NCBI RefSeq assembly: GCF_029962835.1
Contig: NC_080589.1
Coordinates: 16,699,586-16,763,585, forward strand
Direction: 5' to 3'
DNA: 64,000 bases
DNA from: Magnolia sinica
Taxonomy: Eukaryota; Streptophyta; Magnoliopsida; Magnoliales; Magnoliaceae
Both the position numbers and the translations under genes were made by a program. The notes beneath the pieces were generated by a model. That model was not told where the DNA came from. It ran no database searches and saw nothing but the letters and a program-made list of their open reading frames with translations. Positions 1,881 to 54,200 of this stretch are shown here, one piece after another (the stretch's first letter is position 1; each line of letters starts with the position of its first letter).

Positions 1881-1894
1881 ATCGATAAAATAGT
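1881..1894. repeat. LINE target-site duplication, left copy
   Basis: ATCGATAAAATAGT is repeated exactly at 11662-11675, directly after the LINE poly(A) tail. The 14-bp perfect duplication defines both ends of the element. Confidence 0.93.
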
Positions 1895-1998
1895 TCCTGT
1901 GGATTCGCCTTCATCTGATTCTGTTATGAACAGGATGCTTACAATGTGATTCAATGTCTGCACGGATGAAGGATTGATGGTAGGGTTGCTCACATCGA

Positions 1999-3955
1999 TT
2001 GGGCGAAAGGGTAATCTCGCACAAGGACAATAGTACTGTTATCACCTCGACCCCAAAACTAGGCAGAAGTTACAGATTTGGGTCGATCGTTTGCGGTAGC
2101 TGTAAGAGCGTAAAAAAAGGGAGCGTACAATCAGATGGCAAGGAGCTCGAGGATCACAACCATTGCCGATCTAGAGCAGTGGAGAACAGGATTCGGAAGT
2201 TAAGTCTAGCTCTGGTGGGGATTGTGATCGATCAGGATGTCAGGGTTGATAGATTGTCAGGTGCTTTGAAGGCTTCGAACCTAAAGTCCACAGATGTGGA
2301 AATAGTGAGGATTATAGCCCAGAAATTCTTGCTAACGTTCAAATCAAATGAGGAGATTGATGCCTTCAGGAGAAACACAAATTTGCACAAAGAAATGGGG
2401 CTACAGATGATTGAAAGGTGGACTCCAGCAGAGGTTATTGGGGGTGATGGCGTCTGAATTAGATTATTCGGCATCCCAGCCCAGGCCTGGATTAATTCAG
2501 TCATTTTGGATCTGACAAGCTACTTCGGTGAGATCATTCAGATAGATTCTAACTCCAGATTCGGCTATTTCCAGGCATTTGCTCGAATTAAGGTGATTCC
2601 ACGGCCGGGTGTAAGCTTCAATCAAGTTTTGGAGTTGATGGTTTTAGGGGAGTCTTATCCCATTATAGTAGATATGGAACCATTGTTCAAATATGGATGC
2701 TCCCCGTCCATCAAGCATGCTACCAATGAGAGCACTAAAGCATGGGTTATCAGAAGATTCCATGGTCAGTCGGGGCCCTAGTACCTGTTTGTGAAAAGGT
2801 TACAACAGGGGTAGATGCTTCTCAAGATGGTATATCAGGACATCAATCAGGTGATTATTCAAATGTCAAGCCAAGTGATTGTGCCAATGTTAATTTCGGT
2901 GTGGGTGCGAACGCTATTATGGGAGAAGATCTTAGTTACTCTGCGGATGTGTGTGCTAATGAAATTTCGGGTGATAAGGAAGGCGGTGTAGATCCATGAC
3001 CATTACATGTTTGTCGAACGGTTAATGCAGTAGTAGAAGGTAGTGGAGAGGCTCCATGCCTGCCAGAATTAGGTGGAAGTGAAGAGCGATTTCAGGGCAA
3101 GTGCTGCTGCCCAGCTTGCCTGATCCTCTTCTTCTACTAGATAGAACTGATGACACTTTAGGACCGCTTACCAATTCGATAAGGAACCGGTCAGTGGAGT
3201 ATCAGTAGGATGGAACTCAGGACTATTTGAAGACAAATCAAGCAGAGTAGAATAAAAGCCAGGTAACTGTTTATCATGGTGAAGATGATATGTTGGGTGG
3301 AATGCAGCCATATTCTCAACCCCAACAGAACATATATCCTACGGTAAGGCATCTGGAAATGTTAAAATCTTACGCTATAGCCACATCGCGACAACAGGTT
3401 AGGAAGGCGGGACCAGCATCTGTCGAAATCTTACAAATGAATACGGGAAATCAACTTCAAAACTAGGAGCAGCTTTACGAGGGGATGTCTGCTGGTGGAA
3501 AGGAGACCCGCCTACCAGAATTTAGGCATGGTTCTACTGGGAATAGGCTTGTGGTGAATGTGAGTGGTGGTACGAATGTTGAAGCTTGTGTACTTGCCTA
3601 TCACCTGCAATGCCAAGAACAGCGTCTTGAGAGTATGTCTGCTGGTGGAAAGGAAAACCACCCACCAGAACTCAGACATGGTTCAGCGAGAAACAGGGCT
3701 AAGGTGACTGTAAGTGGTGCTAACAGTGAAGAGGCTGGAGCAGTTGTAGAATGCAGATCTGAGCCTAGATGGTGTACAAATTCAACTCAAAATGTAGAAT
3801 ATGAAAGGAGGAAAAAGGTGAAGGACAGAGTTGAACTGGAGGTTGATCTATCTCCATATTTTTCATCTATTAACAAATTAATTAGCTGCTCTAACAGAAA
3901 TCTGGATGGTGATTATGGGAGCCCGGTGGCCAATCAATATGAGGAGCAGGAATAG
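1999..3955 (+). pseudogene. LINE ORF1 (DUF4283-type RNA-binding protein), degraded
   Basis: The N-terminal part (1999-2781) reads as a DUF4283 domain, the usual first domain of plant L1 ORF1 proteins, which bind the element's RNA. A block LALVGIV..DQDVRVDRL is followed by RLFGIPAQAWINSVILDLTS, typical of this family. The frame is cut by TGA at 2455-2457, where the family has a Trp before RLFGIP, so a TGG-to-TGA change is likely. The 2782-3484 part has further stops. A last open stretch, 3485-3955, is polar and low in similarity. I saw no CCHC zinc knuckle. The true start codon is not certain. Confidence 0.7.
3485..3710 (+). repeat. Direct duplication inside LINE ORF1
   Basis: The peptide MSAGGKE followed by PE-RHGS--NR occurs twice, starting at 3485 and about 150 bp later. 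It is an in-frame duplication in the C-terminal part of ORF1, with moderate divergence between units. Confidence 0.75.
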
Positions 3956-16150: not shown

Positions 16151-16489
16151 TTACAGTCTGATGACTCCTGCTCTTTTAAGGAGCATTACCAGATAGCTCC
16201 TGCTTTCATGAGTGGGGTCGCGTTGGAGCTGAAGAGACATCACCTCGTTGGTAGAGCCCACCAGCTGACCGCCTATGAACACAGCTGGTAGAGGTGAGGT
16301 ATGATGTAGAAGGGTGGCCAACACCTTCTCTATTTCTTTTCCCCTGGGTTCCTGATCGAGCTCATAAACAGTTGCATGGGCCCCAAACTCACAGAAGAGC
16401 CTCTTGATGGAGTGGCACATGCAACATGAGCTGTTGCTGAAGATCACTAACCCGTTCTGGCGCGCCATACTCATCACCAGCTGGTCCAT
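16151..16489 (-). CDS. CC-type (class III, ROXY-like) glutaredoxin
   Basis: A 112-residue intronless frame, the normal structure and size for plant CC-type glutaredoxins. These are small thiol oxidoreductases that use glutathione and often act in the nucleus with TGA transcription factors. The active site is CCMC at residues 22-25 within SNSSCCMCHSIK. The cis-Pro is P68 (LPAVFIGG) and the glutathione-contact loop is GSTNEV (78-83). Two oddities stand out. About eight extra residues (near 89-97, RDPTHESRS) lie before the last helix. The C-terminus is VIRL where most ROXY proteins end in ALWL. An L..LL motif (100-104) is kept. The start Met is at the family's usual position. It is the only intact-looking host gene in the window; the subfamily is clear, the exact orthologue is not. 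Confidence 0.92.
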   Translation of the reverse strand: MDQLVMSMARQNGLVIFSNSSCCMCHSIKRLFCEFGAHATVYELDQEPRGKEIEKVLATLLHHTSPLPAVFIGGQLVGSTNEVMSLQLQRDPTHESRSYLVMLLKRAGVIRL

Positions 16490-16495
16490 ACTAGC

Positions 16496-16499
<4 letters not shown>

Positions 16500-16546
<47 letters not shown>
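16500..16546 (-). repeat. CT microsatellite in the glutaredoxin 5' leader
   Basis: About 23 GA units on the plus strand (CT on the gene strand) end roughly 10 bp before the start codon. They lie between the TATA box and the ATG, so they should be in the 5' UTR. Confidence 0.85.
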
Positions 16547-16549
<3 letters not shown>

Positions 16550-16616
16550 TTGGAAATTTGATTGAAAGAAAGCTAGGAAGGCTTTGTTTGCGATGAAAAT
16601 GAGGTTGCGAGGAGAC

Positions 16617-16628
16617 TTATTTATAAAT
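16617..16628 (-). promoter_or_regulatory. TATA box of the glutaredoxin gene
   Basis: ATTTATAAATAA on the minus strand, about 130 bp upstream of the ATG. It would place transcription start near 16590. Confidence 0.6.
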
Positions 16629-16726
16629 GCTCGTGGGGGATGGTGGATGGCATTTTCTAATGGAAGAAAACAAGGAGAATGTTAGTAGATATTTTGGCTC
16701 ATGCCCCAAATACCCTTTATCATTTA

Positions 16727-20207: not shown

Positions 20208-20800
20208 ATGGAAGGTGACTCATCAAGGATGATCAGTCTCAATGATTCTAACTGGACCATATGGAAGGCTAAGATGAAGGACTTTCTTTATTGCAAGGAC
20301 TTGTATGCTCCAATTCCAGGCATATCAGCAAAGACAAAGGATATGTCAGATGATGATTGGAAGAAGTTAGACCGGAAGGCGATGAGGTTTATTAGATAAT
20401 GGCTGGACGATTCTGTATTCCACCATGTGTCTAGGGAGACCTCAGCCGCTAGCCTATGACTGAAATTGCAAGGGTTGTATGAGAGGAAGATAGCCGATAA
20501 TAAGATTTTTCTGATAAGATGACTTGTGAATCTCAAGTTTAAAGATGGTGGTTCTGTGACTGAGCACATGAATGAGGTCAACAACATATTGAACCAGCTC
20601 TCTGCTATGAAGATGATCCTGGACGATGAACTATAGGCTTTGCTATTGCTTAGCTCATTGCTTGACAGTTGGGAGACATTGGTGGTGTTTCTAAGTAACT
20701 CCGCACCAGACGGAAAGGTGTCCATGGAACAGGTAACTAGTTGTCTCTTCAATGAGGAGACAAGGAGGAAGTCTCAGGGGTCTACTCAATAAGAGGCCCC
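20208..20800 (+). pseudogene. Copia 1 gag, degraded
   Basis: ATG at 20208 opens MEGDSSRMISLNDSNW.IWK, the typical start of plant Copia Gag (capsid-like UBN2 domain). The frame continues past stops at about 20397, 20457, 20520, 20634 and 20790 to LLSSLLDSWETLVVFLSNS and the EE-TRR motif. Gag packages the element RNA into particles; this copy cannot make it. Confidence 0.85.
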
Positions 20801-20801
20801 T

Positions 20802-22924
20802 GTGACACAAGATCGGGGGAGAGGAAAGAACAGAAAGGGTGGGAAGGCCCGAGATAAATCAAGAGGCAAGTCGATCATCAGGAAGGATGTTGAATGTTGG
20901 AATTGTGATAAGAAGGGCCACTACAAGCATGAATGTCATAAGAAGAATAAGCACAAAAAAAGAAAAGGAAAGGAGAAGGAAAATGAATCAGACTCCACTA
21001 CGGTCACTACAGATGGTGACGTTGTAGTTATTCTTTCGGTAGATCATGATGTTTGTCTTAGGGCTACAAGTCAGGATACTAATTGGGTGATAGACTCGGG
21101 AGTCTCATTTCATGCGACTCCACATAGGTATTTCCTCACAAGCTACAAGTCAGGTGACTTTGAGACCGTGAAGATGAGAAATTCTGGCATATCGAAGATT
21201 ATATGGGTCGGTGATATTTGTGTGAAGACCGATGTGGGATGCACATTGGTTCTCAAGGATGTGAGGCACATTCCAGACCTTCGCTTCAACTTGATGTCGA
21301 TGGGAAGGTTGGATGATGATGGCTATAAAAGCCGATTTGTTGGTGGGTGGTGAAAGCTCATCAAGAGTTCGTTGATCACAACCAGAGGAAAGAAGTGTTG
21401 CATCCTTTACAAGGTAAGTGTCAGTGTGTGCAAGGGTGAGTTGAACGCAATGGAAGATTCAACTACTGACATGTGGCACAGGTGTCTTAGGCCACATGAG
21501 TGAAAAAAGACTTCAGCTACTAACGAAGAAGATGCTCCTTTCAGAAGTGACATGTATACCTCTCAAAACCTGTATTGATTGTTTATCAAGGAAACAACAT
21601 AGAGTTTCTTTTGTTAAATTTGCTTCCCATGTTAATAAAATGCATGTATTAGATTTGGTTTATTCTGATGTTTGTAATCTTATGAGGACAAAAACCTTGG
21701 GTGGGGCATTGTAATTTGTCACTTTTATAGATGATGCATTTAGGAGGGTTTGGGTTTATGCTTTGAAATCCAAAGATGAGGTCTTTGGTGTGTTTAAAAT
21801 GTTTCATGCTATGGTTGAGAGAGAGAGAGAGAGAGAGGTAGATTATTAAAGTGCATCCGCACTGACAATGGTGGTTAATACATTGGTGACTTCCATGAGT
21901 ATTGTAAGTCCCTCTGTATACGGCATGAACAGACAGTTCCCAAGACCCCCAGCATAATGGTGTGGCTGAGCAAATGAATTGCACCATTGTAGAGAGAATC
22001 AAATGTATGTTATCCCATTCAAAGTTGCCCAAGACGTTCTAGGGAGAAGTAATGCACACGACAATGTATTTGATAAAAAGGTCTCCATCAGCCCCGTTGA
22101 ATAGAGAAGTACCTGAAAAGGTGTGGACTGGATAAGATCCATCGTATAGTCATCTCAGGGTATTTGGATGCAGGGCATCCGTTCATGTACCTAAGGACGA
22201 GAGGTCTAAGCTCGATATGAAGATCAGGCAATGTATGTTCTTGGGGTACGGTGATGAAAAGTCTGGCTGCAAATTGTCGGATCCGACTAAGAAGAAGCTC
22301 GTCAGAAGTAGAGATGTGGTCTTCTTTGAAGATTAATGCATAAAAGATATTTGTAAGGCAGAGAAGACCCAGCCTAGTTCAGGTGAGCGAGAGGACATGA
22401 ATCTGGTTATTCCTCCTATGATGCCTGATGATGGGGGAGTACAACAAGGTGCAGAGGATGAGAGAGTTTCTACAGAAGATGGACCGAGGGAGCAGCCCCC
22501 TCTTGATCCACCTGTTGAGCTACAAGTGAGGAGGACATTTAGGGATAGACACCTATCTAAGAAGTACTCGACGCATGAGCACATTATGCTCATTGATGGG
22601 GGAGAGCCAGAAGATTATTTTGAGGCCCTAGCCGATGAGCATAAGGGAGAGTGGTTGAAAGCTATGTAAGAGGAGATGAAATCCTTGCATAAGACCACAC
22701 CTATGATATGGTGAAATTACCTAAGGATAAGAAAGCTCTGAGCAACAAGTGGGTGTTTAGAAAGAAAATTGAGCAGAAGAATTCACAAACAAGGTCCAAG
22801 GCCAGACTTGTGGTGAAAGGATTTGGTCAGAGAAAAAGTATAGACTTTGAGGAGATATTCTCACCAGTGGTGAAGATGACATCTATACGAGTGTTGCTTG
22901 GGTTGGCAGCCATCATGGATATGG
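20802..22924 (+). pseudogene. Copia 1 pol, part 1: zinc knuckle, protease, integrase, RT start
   Basis: A basic stretch leads into the CCHC knuckle CWNCDKKGHYKHEC (about 20897). The protease motif WVIDSG.SFHATP follows (about 21085; Asp present). The integrase part shows an HHCC-like block (WHRC.. then C-DCL---K). A short GA run near 21818 disturbs the core. KWVFRKK and ARLVVKGFGQ mark the RT start (22750-22830), and SPVVKMTSIRVLLGLAA is cut by the solo LTR. Several stops and frameshifts are present. Confidence 0.87.
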
Positions 22925-26230: not shown

Positions 26231-28063
26231 GTGATGTACATAATGATGTTTATTGCAGGCCGTGCCTTGAGAGCAATGATGGTTTGACGTCCACATTATA
26301 AGAAAAATGTTGGTTAAATGTCCGCATTATAACTCTCCCTAGGGCCCATTGATAGGCCCATACTTGTTGTGTGTAGGCCGTCTAGGTCCATCTTCGTTGT
26401 GAGGATAGGTCATCACCATATAACATGCTTAGTATAATTCCATGACTCATGCCATTTACATCATATATATGCTTGATATGAGTAGTGACTGATCATAGCA
26501 TATGCCATTGGACAGATTATTTATGGGACTCATTGATAGGATTACCCACATGAGTGCGTGGTACGCGCAAGATTGCTGCATGACTGGACGGTGTGACTCA
26601 TGCATCTCGCATATGTGTGACATGATCGTTGTACGCTCTAGTGACATCAGGGCTGTGGCCTCCACAGGCATGTCATGGATGGCCAGATGGGACACCAAAA
26701 ATATTTGGTTCAAGCATCTGGGCACTTTAGATGTCCGTGGGTGAAAGTCCCTAAACCTCCGAGGCCAGGAGACGCCCCAACGTCGAAACTGAGTGGATAC
26801 ATGAGCCCCCGAGTGCCGAATACCAGTAGGTCACATCTCCTAATGTGTCGTGGTTGGTTGGGAGGGAGTGTGGCCTTATTCGCCTGAGTGAGGGGGCTTT
26901 AAGCTAGGCTGAGTTTGACCAGCTTGCAAATGAGTCCGCTATCGACGAGCCAGGTAGGTATTGACAGACTGCTGGCTAGGTGGATAGTGATGTCTTTTCC
27001 ACTCGCTGGTTGTGCGGCTAGGGAGGTGGCAGCCATTATGGAGTGTATAGACCCCGGTGATGATCCCAGAGAGGAACCGTACCGATTTATGGAGCAGGAG
27101 TTTCATACTCATTCATTCATTCATTCACTATCCACTCAGGCTGGTGGTGTGCAATTATTTGTTACGTGTACCTTCGCAATGGCCAAGATTTCAGTTGGGG
27201 CACGTGACTAACCTGAGATCAAGAGTTTACCATATTGAGTCTAACTATCCAAATTTAGGTATGAGACTGGTTTGGATAGAAGTCCCTTGTGATGGACCCC
27301 ACGACTTGCAATACTACGTACTATCATCCCGACTTCACACTCCTGCATGGTCATTCGCACCGCATATTGCATTACATCCTCAACATATAGCATTTGGTTT
27401 ACTGTGCTTCTATATTGCATAACTTGATTAAGGTTAACGGTATTCGTGGACTCGATATCTGATATTGACTTATTATGTTTGTGCATCGCATAACCTAGAT
27501 AAGGCTGACGGTATTTATGAACTTGTCAGCATATTTTCGTATTACTCTGATATTGACTCATGGACTTATCAGTATTTCTGCTTACTTTGAGATCGTATGA
27601 TTCATGATCTTGCCTGTATTTCCAATATTGTATGATTATGACATTGTATTGGATACTTGGCATGTGCATCGCACACACTTACACCACCCTCTAAGCTTTC
27701 TATAAGCTTATGCATAATAGATACGTGCAGGTGGCGTTAGGTTGCAGCAACGTTGAGCATGGAGCGTGCAGCGGTCTTCTGGAGCTTTGATTTTTGACAT
27801 ATGTATTTCCCTTTCAGCATTGTATTCAAATGTTTATATTAGTGGATATGTGATGATGATGTTGCTTTTGTGATTTGGGTTAACTTGTGGTTATGCTTCT
27901 TACGAGATAAATGTACATTAGAAAATCCTCCTTATAGCATCCCAGGATTGGAACCTAGCGTATGAGCGCTAGAAGCCGAGAATGGGGTACTATGGTGGCT
28001 GTCGGCACCGGATTTGGTGATCAGGATTCATGTAAGTCTGATTTTCAGGTTTGGGGCGTGAAA

Positions 28064-29330
28064 GCTTGAGATAGAGCAGTTAGATGTTAAAACTGCCTTT
28101 CTCCATGGTGAACTAGAAAAAGAGATCTACATGCACCAACCAGAGGGGTTCAAAGTCAAAGGCAAAGAGCATATGGTGTGTAGGCTTAGGAAGAGCTTAT
28201 ATGGGCTGAAACAAGTTCCAAGGCAATGGTATAAGAAGTTTAACTCGTTCATGTTAAAGCATGGATATGACAGAATGGAGTCGGATCACTGTGTGTTGAT
28301 GCACAAGTTCTCATATGTTGATTTCTTAGTTCTGCTATTATACGTTGATGACATGCTCATCATGGGTAAAGACATTAAGAAAATTGATAGGCTAAAACAG
28401 GAGTTGGGCAAGTCATTTGTGATGAAAGACTTGGGCCCGGGTAAGCAGATCCTAGGAATGGAGATAACCCGTGATAGAAGTAGCAGAAAGCTTTGGTTGT
28501 CACAAGAACGGTATATTGAGAAAGTCATAGAGCGGTTAAATATGAATGCATTGAAGCCGGTCGGTACTCCACTGGATGGTCACTTCAAATTTAGCAACAA
28601 ACAATGTCCAAAGACGAAGGCAGAGGTAGATGAGATGAGGAAGATACCCTACGCGTTAGCGGTAGGAAGTTTGATGTATGCTATGATGTGTACGCCCCCA
28701 GACATAGCATATGTAGTTGATGTTGTTAGCCGATATCTTACCAATTATGGTAAAGAACCTTGGGCAGTGGTGAAATGGATACTACGGTATCTAAGAGGCT
28801 CATCCAGGTTGAGCTTATGCTATGGTGAAGGAAAACCTATGTTAGAAGGCTACACAGATGCAGATATGACAGGTGACATAGACTCCAGGAAGTCTACATC
28901 GGGGTTCATGTTTATGTTTGTAGGAGGAGCGATGTTTTGGCAGAGTAAGTTACAGAAGATTGTAACATTGTCAACGATAGAGGCCGAATACATTGCAGTC
29001 ACAGAGGCATGTAAAGAGATGCTTTGGATGAAGAGGTTCCTACAAGAACTTAACCTGAAGCAGGAGCAATACGTGGTCTATTGCGATAGTCAAAGTGCTA
29101 TACACTGGAGCAAGAATCCAAGTTAGCACTCCAAGTCAAAGCACATAGATATTTGGTATCACTGGATCAGGGATACTTTGGAACAGAAGGTGTTACAGCT
29201 TGAGAAGGTCCACACAGATGATAATAGGTCATACATAATGACCAAGGCATTGCTCAAGGGCAAGTTTGAGGTTTGTAGTAACCTGGTTAGCTTGAAGAAG
29301 ACGAATTCCTCTTGAGTCGGAAAGAGGGAT
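28064..29330 (+). pseudogene. Copia 1 pol, part 2: reverse transcriptase and RNase H
   Basis: Resumes the RT after the solo LTR with LEIEQLDVKTAFLHGELE and IYMHQPEGF. The catalytic motif is LLLYVDDMLI (about 28335). The Copia linker GSLMYAM-CTPPDIAYVV and the RNase H motifs YTDADMTGDIDSRKSTSGF and EAEYIAVTEACKE follow, then VYCDSQSAIHWSKNPS before a TAG at 29124, past which HSKSKHIDI continues. One long open stretch of 331 codons survives. A purine-rich tract (GGAAAGAGGGA, about 29319) precedes the 3' LTR. Confidence 0.92.
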
Positions 29331-36829: not shown

Positions 36830-37256
36830 GACACATCACCATAAACCTTCGTCTTCTATATCCAGAGTACACCACCTCCCCGTCTTCAAGCCTGAAAACC
36901 AATCAAAGCTGAACAGAGCTTTAACTTCTCCTATATGACCGCTTTGGTCAGCATATCCATAGGATTCTCACTTGTATGAATCTTCTTCAGAGCAACTGAT
37001 CCATCTTCCAGTAACGAACATATAAAGTGATATCTGATATCAATATGCTTGGTCCTTCAATGAAAGGCTGAATTCTTAGCCAAGTGTATTGCACCCTGAC
37101 TGTCACTGTACAGCTTTTAATCTGCTTATTTCTTACCCAACTCTTCCATAAAACCTTGCATCCATACCATCTCCTTGCATGCTTCTGTAGTTACAACATA
37201 TTCTACTTCTGTTGTACTGATAGATACTATCTTCTGTAACTGAGAGACCCAACTGA
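36830..37256 (-). pseudogene. Copia 2 RNase H, C-terminal part
   Basis: Minus strand from the CACTA insertion point: SWVSQLQKIVSISTTEVEYV, then EACKEMVWM and YSDSQGAIHLAKNSAFH, then KHIDIRYHF and SENPMDMLTKAV, the ordered end of a Copia RNase H. A few stops interrupt it. Joined with 46948-47220 it completes the domain. Confidence 0.88.
37254..37256. repeat. CACTA target-site duplication, left
   Basis: TGA directly before the CACTAC end; repeated at 46945-46947. Confidence 0.85.
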
Positions 37257-37304
37257 CACTACTAAAAAATCGAGCAAAGGGTACAGACTTTGAAAGTTTT
37301 TAGC

Positions 37305-37400
37305 TACGGATTAAATCTGTAGTAATTATGCTACAAATTTAATTCATAGCTAAAACCTAATTGATCTGTAGCTAAAGCCTATATCCTCACCAGAACATTA
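37305..37400. repeat. Left subterminal repeats of the CACTA element
   Basis: Variants of 'tagctacggattaaatctgtag' and 'agctaaa' recur close to the left end. Such subterminal motifs are where CACTA transposases bind; the right end has a richer set. Confidence 0.7.
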
Positions 37401-37779
37401 TTAGATATTGATGGTGCTTAAGGGGCTCCATGGGGCCTATTGGAATATATGTGTTTGATCTAAGCCGTTCATCAATTCTAATATATAATTTTAGTGGATT
37501 AGTCCAAAAATTATGTAAATTAAAGGCATACATGGACCACACCATAAGAAATAATAAAAATTAAATTTCAATTGTTAATATGTTGTGTGATCTTATTACA
37601 ACTTCGATCTGACTCGTTTTTTACGTCAACCCTTAAAATAATATTTTAAAATTAATGGACAGAGTGGATAAATAACATACATCACGGTGGGCCCCATGGT
37701 CCTAATGGGCCGTCCGTCATGCGCCCTCCTCAAAATGAAAATCTCAGCCCGCCTTTTTTCTCTTGCCCGCAACATCCGC

Positions 37780-37817
37780 CCTTTTCTCCCTCTCTCCATC
37801 TCCTAAGCTCCCTCACC

Positions 37818-37850
<33 letters not shown>

Positions 37851-38050
37851 GCACTCAGCCTCTCCCCCGCCCTCTCTCGATCTCCCGCTCTCCCTCACCC
37901 TCTCTCTGTCTCTCGCCCGCATTCCCCTCTCTCTGTTTCCCAACCTCTCTCTCTCTCGCTAGCATTTTCAAAACCCCCTTTCGCTGTGAGAAGGAGAAGG
38001 AGAAGAACGGTTAGTCTTTATCTCTCTCTCTCTCTCTCTCTCTCTGTTTC
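37780..38050 (+). repeat. CT-rich tracts, leader-like
   Basis: Two CT microsatellites (about 37820-37851 and 38022-38045) with a pyrimidine-rich stretch between. The Ser/Leu-rich frames they produce are artefacts of the repeat. Such tracts are common in plant 5' UTRs, so this may be a captured gene leader. Confidence 0.5.
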
Positions 38051-41000
38051 TAGAATTAGTTGCATTTGGATGCGCCATTGAAATCTCTATTTCTGTATCT
38101 AATGACTTAAGCGTAGATAATAGGGCTGCAACTTAAACCCAAGTTCTGGTTGTGTTGGGTCAGGTTGTTGAAAAACACCAACCTTATTTAAATTGGTGTT
38201 GGGTTTTCGTTGAGCAAATTCATGCATTTGGGTTGAGTATTGAGGATCTTGGATTGGGTTGTAGATATATGGCATAGAAGCCCCTTTCTACCAAAGATTG
38301 TCTCCAAAAGGTGGCACGATTTGATGGGCCCACATGAGTTTTGGATCTGCCTTATTTTAGAATCCTGTCCACTTGAATTTTTGAAAAACTGATGGACAGA
38401 GTGGATTTATCGTGGCCATCTCTGTAGGCACACATAGCTTATGACTACAAGAAATTCCTGTGGGCGGATTAGGGATTGCCCGAGTAACACCGCAGCATGT
38501 GTTTTTCCTGACCGTGGGCCCACCTTGATGTGTGTTTTATATCCACATAGTTCATCAGTTTTTCCAGATCATTGTATGGGATGTTCCCAAAAATGAAATA
38601 TATCCAAATTTCAGGTGGACAACCTCATAGAAAAGGCTAGTGATTAATCATTAAAAACTTTCTTGCATGCCACAAAAGATTTAAATCGGGCTGATATTTG
38701 TGTTTGACCTTACTAACAAGAGGAAAATAAATATTAAGGTGGAGTTGGGAAGTTTTTAATGGTGGGCGATTATTTCTTGTGTTGTGGTTCATATGAGATT
38801 TGATTTGCTTGAATTTGACATTAAATCCTTCTTATAAATGAATCTCTTTCCAAAAGGTGGCATGATTTTTATGTGGTCCAAAGCAGATCCTGCATAGTGT
38901 AGGCTTCTTAACAGCAGATGTTTTCAATGATAACTAGTTCAGGTATATAGACTTGCAGCTAAGTTGTCAACAGGGATGCATATTGCATACTAAGTTACTC
39001 AGTGAGCCCACCGTTATGTCTTCTTGACTTATCATGAAGTATGTAACATACACGGGGGACTCTTTGTGCATGCATGTACACCTCACAGATTTTTTTAAAA
39101 AGGCTTTTGCAAGCTTGAAATTTTAAATGCTCACTGGATTCCCTCCTCTGTTTTTTTATGGTGAGGATGTGAAAGCGCAACTTTCTTAGTGTTGAGTGCA
39201 TCTAGTTGTGCCCATGTATATAATTACCTTTGCAATATAAAAATGAAAAATGATAATAAAGTTAGTACATTGACCCGTCTTGCAATATATATTTTCTCTG
39301 TTAAGAGCCATTTATACCATGTTTGCAAAAACATGTTAAAACTGAAAGTATTTTTCTTTTGAGACTTTTTATGAAATATCTCATTGTAGTGGTTTCATAG
39401 AAACCACATTGGGTAGAGCAAAATGTTAGCAACATTATTAATTTGTTGTAAAAATAAAATGATTGCAAACTCCTTAATACATTGTATTTGGTTGATAATA
39501 TATGTCTGGGTTCAATCATTTGATAGTGCAGTGAGTATCTTTGGTTTTATGGTTTTACTTGTACATTCCTATATTGATTGCTCATGTATGACAGTTATGC
39601 GCATTCTTTCAGGTGGATGTTACATATGGGAGGATTAGAGCTGCATATTTCATATTCAAGCTTATGTTGTTGTCATACATGCAGATCAATTCTTCTATGT
39701 TTGAGTGCATGGCGATTGGATCTGAAAATTTGAGATTTTCATTCATTTATTTCATGGCTTTCGGTAAGATCTTCTTTAATTGTTAATTTATTTAATTTGA
39801 ATGGAAGAAGGATTGATTATTCAATGCAAACTCAATTTATGGAGAGGTGTAGTTTTAGTCTAAAAATACTTGAGCTTTCATTTGAAATTAAAAAAAAAAG
39901 GAATTATACTTAATTCGTTGTTTCATTTCTTGGCATATAGCTCAAAGAGGACTGCATGCATAAGAGCATCTGATGATTTTTGGCTAAGAGTCCCAGCTCA
40001 AAGAGGACTGCTGTTATTGGGTAACATCTATCATATGTAATGATCAATTCAAATTTGATTGAGAATCCAAATACACCTTTCTTGCATATGCTTTTCCAGC
40101 CACTACAACTCGGATCTCTATTTGGCTCTGGTTTTCCCGATTTTCTCAATAAAACAGTTTGATTGAAGACTGATTTGCTCTGTTTTTCCTGATTTTCTCT
40201 TGTTTTTATAGAAATTAGGGTTTGGAGAAGCTATCTTGAAGAAATTCTAGGCCATTGACTCACAAGTGTAGCTGGGTCACATGCATTTCACTCAACTCGA
40301 AGAAGCTAAAACCGTCTACATGACAGCTCCCACGCGGGCCTCGTTCCTAACATCACAGTGCACCCCACCTGATGAATGGACTAACCCTTGCCTAATTGGT
40401 AATCTGGACCTAATTTGCTGAATGCTTGCTTGAATTACAGAATCACATCGCCATTGGAAAGTTAACTTGATAAGCTAAAACTGATTTATTTATTTATTTA
40501 TTTATTTTTTATAGCTTGAGTGATGTTTAACCTTTGAACTATAGCCATGCTCTTTGTTGACAAAAAATGGATAACCACCTTGATTATTGTCAGCAACAAG
40601 CCTTTTGAGGCAAATATCTGTAGAATGATAAAACCATGAAGTCATCGACTTGGGTTTCATCTTGGACCCCTAACATTGTTTCACGAGAACCCTTGGCCAA
40701 GCCTGCATCACAGGTGAGTGATGTATCCGTCAAATTCACTTAAAATTTGCTTCTAGGAATAGATTCACATAGAGAAGCCTCCATTAAGTTGTGTTTATAG
40801 GTTTTAGGTTTTCCAGAAGACAAAATCCGTCCCTTCTCCTTTGTTATTTCCATTGTAACAAACATGTCCTTTGTTTATCTGTTGCAATAAATTAATAACC
40901 ACTTTATCATTCTTATGTTAGTTGGGTATATTTTCAGTATTACCTGTGTCAATGAAAAAAGTTCTTTAAAGCTATTCTTTGGGCATATTGGTTCTTTGAA

Positions 41001-41149
41001 GAAAAACTTTTCTTTTAGTTTCTCTCTGTATAGTTTCTTTGGGCACTACTCATTATACCACAGCTTAGCGTAAGTTTTTTATGGCATTTTCATTTTATGG
41101 TTTCTGTTTTTGAAGTTTTTGATAACAATTCCTTGGATGTGGGTCTAGA

Positions 41150-41358
41150 TGTTGTATTTTTGACCTTTTCTTTCTAGGTTTTGTTAGGTTATTTTAGTTG
41201 TTTTAGTTGTCTTTTCTTTGTATAACTCCTTTAGGTTTTCTAGTCTTTTGCCTCTTCTTTTTTCCTTAAATTTTTTTCCTTTCCTTTTGTTTTCTTCCTA
41301 TTTATAGTCCCTTGTGTGCTTTAATAAATTTCTCATCTTTCAAAAAAAAAAAAAAAAA
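41150..41358 (+). mobile_element. Possible LINE 3' end (truncated copy)
   Basis: T-rich sequence, 'tgtgctttaataaatttctc', then an A tail of about 16 residues, as at plant L1 3' ends. A weak TSD candidate, ACAAAAA(A/G)TGGAT, follows the tail (41361) and occurs near 40562. No coding part is seen. Confidence 0.35.
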
Positions 41359-41816
41359 CACAAAAAGTGGATGTGTTAAATGAACTTCTTGTTAATTTTT
41401 CATATTATTTAAGATTCTTGCAACATTATATATATGAATTTATATTTGTAGACTACTTATATATATTGTTTCCTTTCATAATCTACTTTCTCATTCTTTT
41501 CGGGTGGTTGTTATTACTTTCTCAGTCGTTGGTCCTATTGTGGGTAGAGCATAGCTGAAATTCACACTGTTTATACAATCTGAAATTTTCAACTCAACTA
41601 TTGAATTTGGGATATGGACCACTTTCTCTTCAACTTTCCATTTGACAATTACCAATGGGATGGTTAGACTTTTGTAAATTAGCATGCATGTATGCAGTGT
41701 CTTGGGTTATGATAATGTTGCGAGTTGGGGGGAAAGCATATTGTAGAGATATGTTGTCTTATTTATGGACATTATGATCACTTAAGTTTTCAGTTTCTAC
41801 AACTAGGCCTGTTGTT

Positions 41817-41939
41817 CAGTGTTCCAAACCATCAATATGATGGGCCATGCCCCATATTGGTTGCCCATGTACCAATAGCCATTCAGTTTGGAAGAGCCTA
41901 GCCAAGAATTCTTGGCCTTCATTTGTTTTTGGAACACTG
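41817..41939. mobile_element. Small foldback element (hAT-like MITE candidate)
   Basis: A 123-bp segment with 12-bp inverted ends CAGTGTTCCAAA / TTTGGAACACTG differing only in spacing. CAG-starting ends are typical of hAT MITEs, but the 8-bp flanks match only partly. Confidence 0.4.
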
Positions 41940-42597
41940 CTGTATTAGAACCGGAAGCTTGAGAAAATGAAAATTGGACAAACGCCTCATCTTAATTTTC
42001 ATTCTTTTGATTGTCCTGTCTATATATATGTTGGCCACTGGATAAAGGGTCAGAACTTCCCCATCTAATCTGGGAGACTTAGAATGCATGGGCCATACAT
42101 AGGCCCTCAAATAAATATGGTTTGGATCCCTGAACCATGGGCTATATGCAAGCAAACTGCATAGTTATTCTTAGGTCAAGCATTGTATCCTACCTCTTTT
42201 AGTTATGCTTTTACAGGGGATCTTGTGCTTTATTTTGTGATTCTAGTTGTTTTTTGAAATGACCATGTTTTTCTACATTCATCATTAATATTGTCACACC
42301 ATCTTCCTCTTTCATACCTTCTGCTTTGGTTTATGTAGCAGATTGTAAGAATCCTTAGGCCATCTCTAGGTTTTACTGCATTCATCATTAATTTGAAAGT
42401 GTCCCAAACATGCTGATTGCAGCTGGTTCAATGTCTTTGCATCAATCAGTTTCAGATGAGCTGGCCTTTTGCAATTGCTTTTTTTTTTATTTAAATTTTT
42501 ACTGGCTTAAATCCAAATTACAGTTTTATGGCCAGTAGCTGATTGGAGTTTGTTGTGTTTTGTGGTTTTTTTTTTTGTTTTGATGGTAACAATGCAG

Positions 42598-42762
42598 TGT
42601 TTGGGTGATGACGAATAAACGAACTAGAAGATTGTCCCAAATGCCGAAAGAAGTTAGAGGGGAAATAGAACCTTATTTTATCGAGCATGCTGCTATCTTG
42701 GATGAGGACAGCCGAAAACTGCCAAAGCTCAACGATAACTCTGCGGATTACATGAGGCGAGA
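42598..42762 (+). pseudogene. FATB: Captured FATB acyl-ACP thioesterase exon
   Basis: One exon with an AG acceptor (42596-42597) and a GT donor (42763). It reads VWVMTNKRTRRLSQMP, then EVRGEIEPYF and ILDEDSRKLPKL, closing NDNSADYM. This is the middle segment of plastid FATB thioesterases (WVMMNK.TRRLSK.P..EVR.EI.P), which release palmitate and other saturated fatty acids from ACP. The frame is open in this exon but all other exons, including the catalytic ones, are absent. It cannot be functional alone. FATB rather than FATA is preferred from MMNK-type wording and EVRGEI; FATA has a different sequence here. Confidence 0.85.
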
Positions 42763-43142
42763 GTGAGCATATAATTTCTTCTATTTCCTTTTTTCCTTTT
42801 TTGTCAAGTGGTCAGTATACACTGTGTATCATCTGTGTTTGGGTAAACCATATTCCGGCAATATGATTGGTATTGGAAACATTTGAAAATCATATATGCT
42901 CCCAGTGATTTTATATTAGATTTTGATTTCCTTCGAATATGCTCGTGACACGTGGTTTCTCTCTGGTAGTAGTGAAGTTAGGAGAGTATCTTAGTACCAT
43001 AATTACTATATTGATTTGCTAGAGCATTTGATTCAAACATGGATGATTTCTATTTTAATGATTGTCTGAGGTCATTTCATAATTGCTTCCCAAATTCATG
43101 ATCCTTGATGTGTCGCTGACATACATTATTTAATTTAATTAG

Positions 43143-43544
43143 GTTCGTGTAATACACGAATGGGCCTGGGCAGGTACTCCAAATGAAGGGGCTGCTTGGC
43201 TCCATTTGTAGAGACTAGTTGATACATGGCACAGGTACTGTTAATTCCAGTGACTGGAGGAGTTGTCGTTGGCATGATGCATGGATTACTTGAAATTTTC
43301 GACCAAATAAAGCAGCCAAGGTCTTCTCAAAGGCAGGGCTTTGATCTGCTGGCTGGAGTCTTCCCTAGAATAAAGGCCATACAGGCTGCTGTAACATTAG
43401 GCACTGGTTGTTCTTTAACTCTTGAGGGACCCAATGTTGATATTGGTAAATCATGTGCAAATGGGTGTCCGGCAATGATGGAAAACAACAACGAAAGGAG
43501 GATAACTCTCGTGGCAACTGGTGCAGCTTATGGAATTTCTTCAG
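43143..43544 (+). pseudogene. Captured CLC-f-type chloride channel exon
   Basis: Begins after AG at 43141-43142 with VRVIHEWAWAGTPNEGAAWL and ends GISSG before GTTCGG. The middle reads LLIPVTGGVVVGMMHGLLEI, GFDLLAGVFP, then AAVTLGTGCSL and VDIGKSCANGC, characteristic of plant CLC-f (a member of the anion channel/transporter family in endomembranes). Damage: a TAG at about 43209 where the family has Gln, a 1-base deletion at about 43233 (WHR/ILLIP), and GPEGP changed to TLEGP in the anion-selectivity motif. Only one exon is present, so it is a dead fragment. Confidence 0.88.
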
Positions 43545-44191
43545 GTTCGGTATTTCTCTCAATTTTTTGCTCTGCAGATGTGAATGGTTGGTCTAGTTGA
43601 ATGACTGACCATGTCTTTGTCGAAAGTTGCTTTGAAACCCACCACCTCTACATGTTTGAATTTTGGGCTTGTTTGGCTAGAATGCAATCTGGGGAATGTA
43701 ACAAGGTTGTATCAACAAGACATTCACACCTATTTGGGAAGCAGTAAATGCTGCAGCAAGTTGTTTGCATTTTCTTTCCCCTCAACAAGAGAGTACAACT
43801 TTTTTTTTCTTTTTCTTTTCAAAAAGTCGAATGGAGGGAAAACAGTTTGTCTCTGATATCTACAGGTTGTCACCAAAAACCTTTCCTAATTGACTATTTT
43901 TCAATGCCCTTAATGCAGAAGCTAGGCCTAGAACTAATATTGAAACCAACACAAATTTTAAAATTCTGCTCCATCTCATTTTAGATCAATTTACTGTTCA
44001 CATACTTTTTTTTTTGAAACAAAATATGTCTTCATTGATAGAAAATTCTGTAGGATTTGATTCACAAACAAAATTTACTGTTCACATACAATTGCCAAAC
44101 AACATTGAAGTTAAATTGTGAATCCTTTGTTATCAGATTCAAATTAAATAGTAGGATTTGATTCACTATCAATTTTATTAACACGCTTTCC

Positions 44192-44316
44192 TCATCAGTT
44201 CATTTGGGGGAGTTTTGTAAGCGCCCGTAGCGTAGCTACGACGCTACGTAGCGTTAGCAAATAACATAAATCCCGCTAACTTTAAGATCTTCAACGTCAT
44301 CAGTTCATTTGGGGGA
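44192..44316. repeat. 20-bp direct repeat flanking a palindromic 85-bp insert
   Basis: TCATCAGTTCATTTGGGGGA occurs at 44192-44211 and 44297-44316. Between them lies a palindrome-rich block (CGCTACGTAGCG and GTAGCGT..ACGCTAC near 44226-44253). Looks like a small insertion with a 20-bp duplication. Confidence 0.6.
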
Positions 44317-44997
44317 TTGGTAAACAAGATCTTTAGACTCATGCAATGGAGTTCATGAGGTGAAGGATATATTTTGATACGGGCTTTCTTATACGATTAT
44401 CTTCTCGATTTCCTTTGTGCCATTGGTTTTGATTAATAAGTGTCAAAATTAATTTAATGAAAATGTGAAGCTGTCTTTAGCTTTCAAATGCATCTCAACA
44501 ATCGACATTACTATATGCATGGATATTTGAACTATCTGCTTATTTGCCTTGATATCAAGAGTTTTACCTTAATAGAAAAAGTTATTGGCTATTGTTTATT
44601 GGAACTCTTTTATGTTCATAATCGTGTTTCAGTGGTAGAACACTTGGATTGCATTTGGCCTTATTTTTTCAGTGTTGAGCTATCTAATGTTGGTTCATGT
44701 TCCCAAACAAAATGTTTAATCCATTGTTTCTGAATTGTCAACTTTAGAAAAGATTCAAGTATCTAATGCTAGGGCTAAAATTAAACAAAATGAAGAGAAT
44801 GAAACTAATTAGGATAATGAATAGAGGATGGATAGATGAAGATTTTGTAAATTCATTCCTTTCAGAATTTTTGATGAAAAATTTACAAGTTTGAGTGAGA
44901 ATTTGAGAGTTTGCTGCTCCTGTTACTTGTTTACTTGTTGCAAATGTCTTTTATTCATAGCAGATCTTGACTAGTTTTTATGTGAACAAATTCCTAG

Positions 44998-45124
44998 GTA
45001 TGTGGATCCACTCAATATAACTGCAATGGCATGTCCCGCACTATCGTTATGTCCTCTGGCAATACCAGAAGCTATGCGTGGAATTCCTAACATTCTCAAT
45101 CGGGTTCGAGCTGTATTTGATAAG
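44998..45124 (+). pseudogene. SIR: Captured sulfite reductase exon 1 of 4
   Basis: After AG at 44996-44997 it reads [20 protein letters not shown], then [20 protein letters not shown] and DK, matching ferredoxin-sulfite reductase, the plastid enzyme that reduces sulfite to sulfide in cysteine synthesis. C of ACPALSLC belongs to the conserved cluster-ligand region (ACPA.PLCPLAITEAE). The donor reads AAG/GCAAGC, a GC-AG type intron, or GT mutated to GC. Confidence 0.9.
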
Positions 45125-45267
45125 GCAAGCCATAAAGCTATATACTCACATTTTTTTTTTCTTTTTTCTTTTTGGTGTGTAATTCAAAAATGAACAGAAA
45201 ATATGCATTAAACCTGTTTTTCCATGGGGTCACCCAGACACTTGAAAATGGTGTTTTGTTGTTACAA

Positions 45268-45378
45268 GTTGGCCTCAAGTACAATGAGTCAGTGGTAATA
45301 AGGGTAACTGGATGCCCTAGTGCCAGACCTTATATAGCTGAGCTTGGACTGGTTGGCGATGGACCCAACATGTACCAG
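45268..45378 (+). pseudogene. SIR: Captured sulfite reductase exon 2 of 4
   Basis: Reads [20 protein letters not shown], then [17 protein letters not shown] and a CAG/GTATTT donor. Family members have GCPNGCARPYMAELG, with the Cys of NGC ligating the siroheme-linked 4Fe-4S cluster. Here NGC is missing and the Cys is lost, so the product would be inactive. The acceptor is ACAA instead of ACAG. Confidence 0.9.
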
Positions 45379-45652
45379 GTATTTCGCATGCTAAATTTGT
45401 CGAAACCCTAGAAACAAATGTATCATAGATGAGTTATATTCTTTTACAAGGATAAGTACCATGTAGTTGCCAGAATGGTGATTTGAGCACGACACGTCCT
45501 GTCCACCCCCAAAAATCGGGAAAAATCCCAAACAAACAAGAACATTGAGATATCCTTCTAAAGATCCATTACAGGATGTCTCTTATAAATCTTTAAAAAA
45601 GGACTTATTTTAGAAGGATGAATGATGGGGTATTTTTGCATGTTTCAAATAG

Positions 45653-45811
45653 GTCTGGCTCGGGGGAACACCTAACCAAACCTCACTATTAAAATGTTTC
45701 ATGAATAAGGTGAAGATTCATGATCTAGAAAAGGTTTTGGAGCCATTGTTCTACAATTGGAGGCGCAAATGTCAACAGGGAGAATCTTTCGGCGATTTCA
45801 CAACCCACCTG
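45653..45811 (+). pseudogene. SIR: Captured sulfite reductase exon 3 of 4
   Basis: Between AATAG and CTG/GTGAAT it reads VWLGGTPNQTSLLKCFMNKV, KIHDLEKVLEPLFYNWRR and ESFGDFTTHL, in frame and close to the family sequence. Confidence 0.9.
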
Positions 45812-46100
45812 GTGAATACCCAAGTTTGTATTTGGGTCATGTTATTTACAACATCTGAATTTTTTTCAGCCATACTTGCAACTTGAATTATTTCATGGGT
45901 TTTAGGATCTGAAATTTAGCGAATGTCTAATCATTTTTAAAAGAACACTACCACAGAAAATTTCTATATCAGCAGTGTCTCAATGCTTGGTTTTGCCCCA
46001 TTTTCATCTACATATCATTCCAGGGGCAATTAATAGAAAATCTGAACGGTTCTATACCGGCAAAGTAAGCATACATTAAGTTTCTTCTTGTCCTATGTAG

Positions 46101-46307
46101 GGCTTTGACAAACTAAAAGAGACAGTTGAGAAGTGGGAGGGCATAGCAAAGGCACTGGCATGATTAAATCTAAAGCTTTTTGCTGACAAAGACACATACA
46201 AAGCCATGAATGAACTTGTAAAGCTGCAGAACAAGATTGCTCACCAGCTGGCCATGGAAGTCATCCGTAACTTTGTTGCTGCCCAGCAAAATGGTAAAAG
46301 TGAATGA
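46101..46307 (+). pseudogene. SIR: Captured sulfite reductase exon 4 of 4 (C-terminus)
   Basis: After TGTAG it reads GFDKLKETVEKWEGIAKALA, a TGA stop at about 46161-46163, then LNLKLFADKDTYKAMNELV, HQLAMEVIRNFVAAQQNGKS and the normal stop at 46305-46307. The internal TGA is at a site that is a sense codon in the family. The exon order and spacing match a genomic copy, so capture was at DNA level. Confidence 0.9.
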
Positions 46308-46619
46308 TCAACCCTTTTTTTCAGCCATTGCTATTTGTTAAGTAAATTCCAGTTTAGATGAACTTATCTTTTTTCTTTTTTCTAAATCATGGATGAGTGA
46401 GACTTAGTTGAAAAGAACTTGAGATATATAACCATCTACCAGGCTATTGCATCGTTTTCCCCTGTACAAATAGTTTTGATTTTAATTTATTTTTTTTAAT
46501 ATAAAGCGATCCCTTTGTCATAAGGCCATGGTATGAAATGAAGATTGTAATTGAATGAATGAATGATCATGCAGGTTGTAATTGAATGAATGAATGAATG
46601 ATTATAAAAAAAAATTTAA

Positions 46620-46944
46620 TGTAGGCAATAGCTACGGATATTAACCGTAGCTGTTACTCTGACAACCGTAGCTGTTATAAAATTCGGCATTTGATATGGA
46701 TCCAACACTACTTTTAGCTACCAATAATATCTGTAGTTGTAGGTGCTTTTGGCTACAGAAATATTTGCTACGGATTATATCCGTAGCTATTTTAAGCTAT
46801 GGCTACGGATTAAATCCGTAGCCATAGGTTTTAGACCTATTGGCTTGGCACCTACGATGATGGTCATGTTACGGATTTAATCCGTAGCCATAGGTGTATG
46901 GCTATGGATTAAATCCGTAGCCTTTGCCCATTTTTCTGGTAGTG
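46620..46944. repeat. Right subterminal repeats of the CACTA element
   Basis: About eight copies of CTACGGAT(T/A)..ATCCGTAG-type palindromes occur before the right end TTTTTCTGGTAGTG. They match the left subterminal motifs and mark transposase-binding DNA. Confidence 0.85.
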
Positions 46945-46947
46945 TGA
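46945..46947. repeat. CACTA target-site duplication, right
   Basis: TGA directly after the ..GTAGTG end, identical to 37254-37256. Confidence 0.85.
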
Positions 46948-51285: not shown

Positions 51286-54200
51286 CATATGGGACTTTAG
51301 CCATGTAATCTCGTTCCTCCTGCGTATTCGCACCTTTCTCCTTAGAAAGCTTGAAGTGGTTGGCTAATGGAGTGCTAACAAGCTTAGCACCTCCCATATT
51401 GAATTGATCAAGAACCTTGGCTATGTACTCTGCCTGTGACAAAACCAGTTTCTTGCTTTCCCTGTCACGCTTTATCCTCATGCCTATGATTTATTTTGTA
51501 ACTCCTAAATCCGTCATGAAAAATTCTCTAAATAGTTGTCTTTTGAGATCTGAGATGTCCTTCATGCTTGATTCGGCCATAAGCATATCATCAACATACA
51601 GAAGAAGTATGATGTATGACATATCAAACTTCTTCAAATAGTAATAGTGGTCTGCATGACTTATATCTCCTACAACTGTTTCCCGACATGAAACTGTCGA
51701 ACTTCTTATATCACTGGGAACCTGCTTTAGGCCATATAGACTTTTCTTCAGTCTACACACCTTGTTTCCTTTCCTGGTGCCACGTATCCTGTCAGCTGAT
51801 ACATATATATCTCTTCTTCAAGGTCCCCATGAAGAAAGGCTGTCTTAATATGTAGTTACTTTAGATGTTAGTTCTCTATAGCCACTATACTAAAAACCAT
51901 GCGAATCGTAGACATTTTCACTACTGGTGAAAATATTTCAATGAAATCAATACCTGCCTTTTGTTGAAACCCTTTCACAACCAATCTAACTTTGTACCAT
52001 TTCGAACCATTATGCTCCTCCTTTAGTCTGTAAACCTACTTATTATGAAGAGCTTTCTTACCCTTAGGTAGAGTGACTAGCTCCCATATACGATTAGCCT
52101 CAAGAGAGTCCATCTCATCATTCATGGTCTACTCCCACCTAACCCGTATATCTGACTGTAATGCCTCTTCAAAACACTCTAGTTTACCATTATCTGTCAG
52201 CAGTAAATAATATAAGGAGGGTGAGTATCAGACTGTGGGTATCCTCTCCTAAGTAGACCTCCTCACAACCGGTGTATGTGACTCTGCCTCATAATGTTCC
52301 TGTGCATGATCATCCTGTGGTGCTGTAACACCCGTGTCCAGTAACTCTTCTAACTCTACGAATTCTTTTTCCTCGGCCTTGTTTTGCTGCACATTGTCCT
52401 TATGCATCACTTTTTTATTGAAGAATACGTCTTTGCTTCTGATGATTTTCTTATTTTCTGTATCTCAAAACGTGTAGCTAAAATCATGCTGCCCGTAGCC
52501 TATAAACGTGCACCTCCTAAACTTTGCATCCAGCTTGTTTCTGTGCTCTGCATCAATGTGAACATACGAAGTGCAACCGAATACTCTAAGATGTGAAAGG
52601 TTCACTTCTTTCCCAGTCCACGTTTCTTATGGTAACCCACCATCCAATGGTGTTGAGGGACTTCTATTAATGAGATATGTGGCAGTATTCACAGCATCTG
52701 CCCAAAACGTCTTGGGCAACTCTACATGTAACCTCATGCTCCTGGCGCGCTTAAGGATGGTCCTATTAATGCGCTCGGCCACACCATTCTACTATAGTGT
52801 CCCTAGAATCATTTTTTGATGTTTGATTCTATTTGCTGCACAATTCTCCTCAAACCTCTTATCACAGTACTCTCCCCCATTATTAGATCTGAGACATTTT
52901 ACTGTTTTACCTGTCTCGTTTTCTACCATTACTTTCCACTTCTTAAATATATCAAATACATCAGATTTATGCTTTAAGAATAAACCCACGATTTTCTACT
53001 AGTATCATCAATGAAGGAAACAAAATAACGTGAGCCACCAAGAGATAATACCTGTGCCAGTCCCCACACATCAGTATGTACAAGCTCCAATAGATATATC
53101 TTTAGAGCGCATCCTGTCTTCTTGAAGCTCACCCTCTTCTGCTTGCCATATACGCAATCCTCGTAGAATTTCAAGTCAATAGACTTCAGCCCTGGTAGCT
53201 TCTCTTTTAATAATAGCACTTTCATCCCCTTCTCACTCATATGTCCCAACCTCTGATGCCATAACTGCCCATTCACTCTAGTTGATGCGACTGCGAGTGA
53301 ACTATACGATCCTAAATTCATGTACAAAGTACCTTCCTTCTTGCCTCGAGATATCACCAAGGCACCTTTTGTGATCTTCCAGGAATCACTGGTGAAGGTC
53401 GTTACATATCCGGTATCGGCTAACCGTCCCACAAAGATCAAGTTCCGTTTCAAACTCAGTACATGTCTGACATCCTTCAATTTCAAAGTCGTTCCATCTT
53501 TCTGATTTATATGGACATTTCTCTTTCCAACAATACTGCACGGCTCATCATCACTCCTGAAGTCACCTGACACATAATCATGCAGAACTTCCTTACATAA
53601 AGTGGCATGAAACGAACCACCCGAGTCTATGACCTAAGACTCATTCCTCGCATCAAGAGACAAGATCAACGCCTTTATATCACTCTCCTCAGATAGATTC
53701 ACTGAATCCTTTCCACCTTGAGAGCTTCCTTCTTATTTCTTAAGCGCCCTGCAATCACGTTTTATATGCCCCTTCTTCCCGCAATGCCAACACCTGTCTT
53801 TGCCTTTCGATCCCTTGTACTTCTTCCTTTACTTAGAATATTCATGTTTATTGCCTCCTTTGTTCAGTGATCTTCCTCTTCCTTCAACGTTTAGAGCATT
53901 TCCTGAATCCCCTGAAATTTCTAATATCTTTCTTCTAAATTCTTCACTAAGAATTAGACCGGCCACATCATCGAACTTCAGCTTTGTCGACTTTGAAGAA
54001 TTGCTCACGGCAATCACCAAACCATCCCAACTGTCTAGTAAACTGGACAAGATCAATAACGCCCTGACCTCATCCTCAAAAACAATGTCAACGGATTCGA
54101 ACTAGCTCGTGACTGTATTGAACTCATTTAGATATTCAGCTACGCTCACACCATCTGACATCTTCATGTTGAATAGCCATTTCATGAGATGAACCTTGTT

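Follow-up and report, generated by a model that had tools for sequence, protein, structure and literature searches.

A Magnolia sinica CACTA element holding pieces of unrelated host genes belongs to an amplified family of Pack-CACTA character

Positions 37257 to 46944 of a 64-kb stretch of Magnolia sinica DNA (C17:16699586-16763585, hereafter the window) raise the question of how pieces of unrelated host genes come to lie together inside one transposon. A sequence-only reading of the window had described this interval as a CACTA element embedded in a Copia retrotransposon and carrying fragments of a FATB gene, a CLC-type channel gene, and a sulfite reductase (SiR) gene. Searches of the 1.84-Gb genome (127 contigs) indicate that it is very probably a non-autonomous CACTA (En/Spm-type) element of the Pack-CACTA kind, which holds genomic pieces of host genes and in which a FATB-CLC composite formed once and then multiplied.

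The termini are those of a CACTA element. The boundaries read CACTACTAAAAAA ... TTTTTCTGGTAGTG, with TGA directly outside each, and the terminal inverted repeats begin with CACTA (CACTACTAAAAA / CACTACCAGAAA). A subterminal repeat, GCTACGGATTAAATCCGTAGC, matches the 64-kb window seven times when up to five mismatches are allowed, and all seven matches fall inside the two ends of the element. CACTA inverted repeats, a 3-bp duplication, and subterminal repeats at both ends are thus present as in other CACTA (En/Spm) elements. The CACTA ends, TGA duplication, and coordinates proposed earlier are exact on re-examination, and the matching subterminal palindromes are borne out by their confinement to the ends. 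The ends also recur across the genome: the left 200 bp match at all 40 places scored out of 1,020 first-look candidates, as do the right 300 bp at all 40 scored out of 2,300, the window's own copy being included in each set.

The sequence on either side belongs to a decayed Copia element on the minus strand. In two Copia copies of the same genome (L037 and L029), the left and right flanks adjoin uninterrupted and overlap by 3 bp. This is the arrangement predicted for an empty site together with a target-site duplication, and it establishes both the insertion and the duplication. The supposed embedding in Copia is therefore upheld by two empty sites; the Copia reading frame, with stops to the left and right of the element, is a decayed one. 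That a segmental duplication or misassembly joined the genes is extremely improbable: no point in its support was found, and it conflicts with the precise termini, the duplication, the empty sites, and the presence of the same internal junction on five other chromosomes (C1, C3, C5, C9, and C12), where two copies have perfect duplications of their own. The same Copia family elsewhere contains a SiR-bearing CACTA right end (L013, C2:106542130-106546455, at 76-723) inserted about 57 bp from the site used by the window element; the two insertions are very close together.

Three of the passengers can be assigned to genes. The FATB piece agrees with C1:116022 kb in 256 of the 296 columns aligned and ends within an exon, short of the splice donor of the gene. 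Among solved structures it most closely matches an acyl-ACP hydrolase of plants (E 6.7e-14), while its Pfam match to PF01643 (E 0.006) falls under the family cut-off; the sole genome match of the FATB N-terminal domain lies 16 kb upstream of C1:116022 kb on the same strand. A 53-bp filler of an origin other than FATB or CLC leads into the CLC piece, which is identical to the C10 gene at 795 of 901 columns for 42807-43647, with further CLC exons of that gene alongside, and which matches PF00654 (E 4.9e-8). Another CLC locus, on C9, matches the piece at 82%. The subtype may be CLC-f, as proposed earlier; the analysis itself addressed CLC family membership. When the CLC exon was compared with solved structures, the top match was a designed helical protein, which gave no information, and Pfam was used instead.

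The SiR piece is colinear with the gene on C13, introns and 3′ untranslated region included, and one of its exons matches the solved chloroplast sulfite reductase 5h8v (E 1.4e-11); Pfam matched no SiR family in the SiR pieces. The exon rows of the C13 gene span model positions 2-571 of 581 without a stop, and a second SiR locus at C1:141.07 Mb matches partially, at 75% over the part compared. All three pieces lie in a single orientation and retain intron DNA, as had been claimed, and the FATB, CLC-family, and SiR identifications are sustained by these gene, structure, and domain matches. The best-matching genes, which hold more exons than the pieces in the element, lie on three chromosomes (FATB at C1:116.02 Mb, CLC at C10:1.13 Mb, SiR at C13:5.45 Mb) and not side by side at a normal locus. 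With the genes apart and the ends recurring, the two points on which the capture model could have failed, that model is supported. An interior of genomic host-gene DNA whose genes lie elsewhere, present in multiple copies, is a Pack-CACTA trait.

A further passenger raises the count to at least four, so that of the three unrelated host genes originally proposed the identities stand and the number does not. The DNA upstream of the FATB piece matches introns of a SINA-type E3 ligase gene on C7, in which the matched introns are flanked by and interspersed with Sina_ZnF and Sina_TRAF exons; it matches C12:52.84-52.85 Mb more closely (87-95%). Part of the element overlapping this region, 42135-42512, also matches a repeat at 87-98%, with more than one match per locus, at C4:22444500-22454499 (L044), C7:19.05-19.07 Mb, and C19:59.46-59.47 Mb.

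The frame into which these pieces are set resembles a transposase-encoding CACTA family. The left end recurs, at 83% over window 37257-38100, in a relative on C82 (L036) that encodes Transpos_assoc (PF13963) followed by Transposase_21 (PF02992), the latter in two stretches split by an in-frame stop; the relatedness is seen by the left end, the fetched stretch stopping before the right one. A second shared segment lies just upstream of the Transpos_assoc domain in L036 and also occurs at C11, C9, C3, and other places. Because the CT-rich, leader-like stretch is common to L036, it is CACTA sequence and not a captured host promoter, and it may act as a promoter for read-through transcription. No family was found by Pfam in ten of the longest open stretches of the element and no transposase among its gene pieces, and at the nucleotide level nothing in it matches the L036 tnp region.

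The chimera is not singular but belongs to an amplified, multi-copy family. When 40 of 46 candidates were scored, FATB and CLC were found together at seven other places: one each on C12, C5, and C3 and two each on C9 and C1. The FATB-filler-CLC junction is identical and ungapped in all eight aligned copies. The fetched stretches of five of the seven siblings (C3, C9a, C1:51.40 Mb, C12, and C5) include the last SiR exon; a sixth, C9b, may hold it past an inserted Copia, since L043 contains such an exon some 5 kb farther along. Duplications are perfect at C1:51.40 Mb (CTC/CTC) and C12:6.70 Mb (ATG/ATG), while the C5 sibling is flanked by AGC/AGT. The full siblings at C1 and C12 measure 10,045 and 10,082 bp; both have an extra 2.9 kb in place of window 42127-42529 and are without window 43655-44070 and 44199-45967.

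Table 1. Features of the element and its target-site duplication (window coordinates)
Feature	Position	Strand	Basis
Target-site duplication TGA, left copy	37254..37256	.	Flanking comparison, empty sites
Left terminal inverted repeat, CACTACT...	37257..37280	+	24-bp end, 19/24 bp identical to right end
CACTA family 5′ region including CT-rich leader-like stretch, candidate promoter region	37257..38100	+	83% to L036 left end
Left subterminal palindromic repeats	37298..37358	.	
Further segment common with tnp2-encoding CACTA element	39126..39526	+	95% to L036:4526-4926
DNA matching SINA-type E3 ligase introns, middle exon missing	40374..42392	+	79%, piecewise, to introns on C7
FATB (acyl-ACP thioesterase): end of an intron and an exon that begins at 42598 and is truncated at 42753	42466..42753	+	Gene at C1:116006-116022 kb
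53-bp filler joining FATB and CLC pieces	42754..42806	+	Matched at six other places
CLC chloride-channel piece, one exon (43143 to ~43543-43549) and flanking intron	42807..43647, right limit ≤44729	+	Gene exons C10:1123954-1128496
Sulfite reductase 3′ piece: last four exons, introns, native stop, 3′ untranslated region	44729..46541	+	Gene at C13:5445045-5448810
CACTA right arm: subterminal repeats and right terminal inverted repeat	46542..46944	.	
Target-site duplication TGA, right copy	46945..46947	.	Flanking comparison, empty sites

A coherent history can be proposed from these features. The ends and 5′ leader would derive from a tnp2-encoding CACTA family whose transposase genes were replaced by host pieces, namely intron DNA of a SINA-type ligase gene, one exon each of FATB and CLC, and the SiR 3′ end. 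Because the junction is shared among copies, the FATB-CLC composite would have formed once, and the copies would then have multiplied, presumably through a transposase borrowed in trans. Capture may have proceeded by fusion or repair of neighboring elements, and one copy would have inserted into the Copia element, generating the TGA duplication. A fusion-of-neighbors model for Pack-type capture is already published. C9 carries two FATB-CLC siblings of like orientation, some 36 kb from each other (C9:5602178-5609412 and C9:5639785-5647982; L027, L029, and L043); they are possibly a local pair of the type proposed to seed Pack-type elements, one of them seemingly interrupted by Copia.

Whether the passengers were collected stepwise is a separate matter. 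A refinement that comes close to an even chance holds that the window lineage is a hybrid, with a CLC-bearing and a SiR/right-end CACTA lineage joined at 44729/44730 and no stepwise collection. A copy on C16, which has the CLC piece and a deleted FATB, matches the window element as far as 44730 and then, at the very point where the window element switches to SiR, continues into other sequence, part of which is also found in the FATB-CLC copy at C1:21.08 Mb. Conversely, SiR is contiguous with the right end in locus L011, which has no match left of 44930 in the fetched 1.5 kb. Across the ten SiR loci L011-L020, the right arm matches in nine, the exact right end is present in seven, and FATB or CLC peptides occur in the fetched flanks of none. 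Some scored places, moreover, match the CLC part alone or the FATB part alone of the query; those with FATB alone include C1:119065434, C8:75222779, C2:110047995, C11:29550787, and C7:39317276. Against this, deletions from a full ancestor in the C16 copy and in L011 would look the same, and the siblings and window element have one and the same SiR right limit (donor position 3124), which implies that the fusion is older than the subfamily. Relics of inner CACTA ends, expected if neighbors had fused recently, were not found in the element with the pattern used.

The SiR copies themselves are numerous. With 44950-46560 as query, the 40 scored places (145 first-look candidates) comprise the window element, the C13 gene, and 38 others, among them five siblings. 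An internal deletion relative to the SiR gene (donor 2843 to ~3115) is common to eight of the ten loci L011-L020, and sixteen further SiR places, judged by their search matches alone, end at the edge of that deletion or within 2 bp of it. The window piece is without this deletion and spans donor 1281-3124, its right limit being that of the siblings. Left limits on the gene vary among copies (772, 1233, 1281, 1328, and 1481) and fit repeated capture or trimming alike. At 21 sites all 11 transposon copies differ from the SiR gene, but at 241 of the 365 sites with two alleles the variant occurs in a single copy. The SiR tree is correspondingly star-like, with no inner branch that passes both support thresholds, and it lends the hybrid no help; its best fork (92/98) places the window element, L011, and L016 on the side of the gene and the other eight copies away from it.

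Taken more generally, CACTA passengers may be exchangeable modules, with SiR, CLC, and FATB in separate lineages as well as in fusions, copies of the SiR 3′ end far outnumbering the SiR gene, and the window element a recombination hybrid; this view is tentative and slightly less probable than the hybrid junction itself. The hint of recombination among passenger modules is the most interesting aspect of the family. Many SiR-like exon clusters in the Magnolia sinica genome are transposon passengers and not genes, which is a warning for annotation. Further SiR-like exon clusters at C12:82334902-82335506 and C19:43583891-43585426 (L049-L052), separate from both the C13 gene and the C1 locus, have stops in some rows.

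The captured coding pieces are apparently dead and, as judged from substitution patterns, appear to evolve neutrally. Taking the mutation spectrum of neighboring noncoding columns as the neutral null, and with eight copies compared in FATB-CLC, six in the last SiR exon, and eleven in the other SiR exons, private exon changes number 147 nonsynonymous, 51 synonymous, and 5 stop against neutral expectations of 136.7, 53.2, and 9.6 (synonymous share, p = 0.69). Selection on the chimeric exons was rejected on this basis, although pairwise nonsynonymous/synonymous ratios had looked low, at a pooled 0.61 among six copies and at 0.86 among eleven for the other SiR exons. The CLC exon is not open: from 43143 onward it contains a CAG-to-TAG change and a 1-bp deletion, both private to the window copy among eight. 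A 6-bp deletion in the window SiR piece turns TGCPNGCARPY into TGCPSARPY with loss of a cysteine codon, and the last SiR exon contains a stop, as it does in the C3 and C12 siblings (three of six copies compared). The C13 gene has C or G where the window copy has T or A at 47 sites, against 21 of the opposite kind, a count that is unpolarized; a lean from C/G to T/A is expected of methylated transposons.

Expression of the passenger exons as a selected chimeric protein or exon-shuffled gene is accordingly very unlikely. The arrangement of all pieces in one orientation behind the CACTA leader and the retention of splice acceptors (FATB in 8/8 and CLC in 7/8 aligned copies) would suit such a product, but the private changes fit the neutral expectation and the window copy has the CLC, cysteine-codon, and SiR lesions just described. 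It is also unlikely, if less remotely so, that the element would matter mainly through small RNAs that silence the parent genes, SiR above all. In the four SiR exon stretches tested, 129/129, 116/117, 123/159, and 201/204 bases are covered by exact 21-mers pooled over the fetched non-gene loci, as are 131/153 bases of FATB and 347/405 of CLC. With 21-mers of the window element by itself, the coverage is 72, 94, 59, and 63 bases of the SiR stretches, 83 of FATB, and 231 of CLC. Where many copies share about 92% identity, however, such exact matches are to be expected, and they are not evidence of regulation.

Several observations weigh against the interpretation as a Pack-CACTA element with a composite formed once and then multiplied. 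No autonomous partner was found in intact form; L036, the tnp2-encoding relative, has a stop within its frame. There are places matching FATB only or CLC only that exceed the named genes in identity, which makes the immediate source of both pieces uncertain, and Sina exons were not found in the 18 kb fetched at the closest place for the fourth passenger, C12:52.84-52.85 Mb. At the C3 sibling, the left end is degraded and the duplication lacks a match. The totals of the neutral test also vary among subsets, observed over expected being 0.79 for FATB-CLC, 0.78 for the last SiR exon, and 1.30 for the other SiR exons.

Elements of this kind are known from other plants, and the same Pack-CACTA interpretation places the window element among them. 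The soybean CACTA element Tgm-Express1 (Zabala and Vodkin 2007, PMC1947982) contains intronic and exonic pieces of five genes; it is 5.7 kb long, lies within an intron of an expressed gene, and gives rise to spliced chimeric transcripts. The window element, in contrast, sits in Copia, has other passenger genes, and is a multi-copy chimera. The Tpn1 elements of Japanese morning glory (PMC5105172) are likewise En/Spm-related and non-autonomous, with 3-bp duplications, conserved ends, and interiors replaced by captured host genes. They differ in plant lineage and passengers, and a putative autonomous element, TpnA1, is known for them, whereas none was found intact for the window element. CACTA ends with a target-site duplication, the lack of a transposase, and host coding DNA inside are shared with Pack-CACTA and Pack-TYPE elements (PMC8903248 and PMC13317346), from which the window element differs as a new lineage with passenger modules both fused and apart. 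Chenopodium CACTA elements also hold host-gene fragments; in the examples seen in PMC8978399, these are short additions upstream of transposase domains, whereas the interior of the window element is largely replaced.

The literature search found no paper that names the FATB/CLC/SiR combination with CACTA and, by title, none on a magnolia element. The claim that the combination is unusual and undescribed overstates its singularity, as the chimera is multi-copy and multi-gene CACTA elements have been described. The kind of element is known, while the Magnolia family appears to be unreported in the literature searched; any given set of passengers would in any case be expected in one lineage only. 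The value of the system lies in having the matching genes, junctions, and siblings of an amplified gene-capturing CACTA family within one assembled genome, so that the order of capture and fusion can be read from breakpoints, an order that bears on how Pack-type elements collect genes.

Around the element, the window contains further Copia-type and reverse transcriptase pieces at 5655-6350 (+), 20793-21353 (+), 28062-29126 (+), and 52974-53633 (-), the families represented being RVT_1 reverse transcriptase and the Copia-type RVT_2, Pol_BBD, and gag_pre-integrs. The sole non-transposon family among five window open reading frames scanned is glutaredoxin (PF00462, E 1.3e-9), in the frame at 16151-16681 (-).

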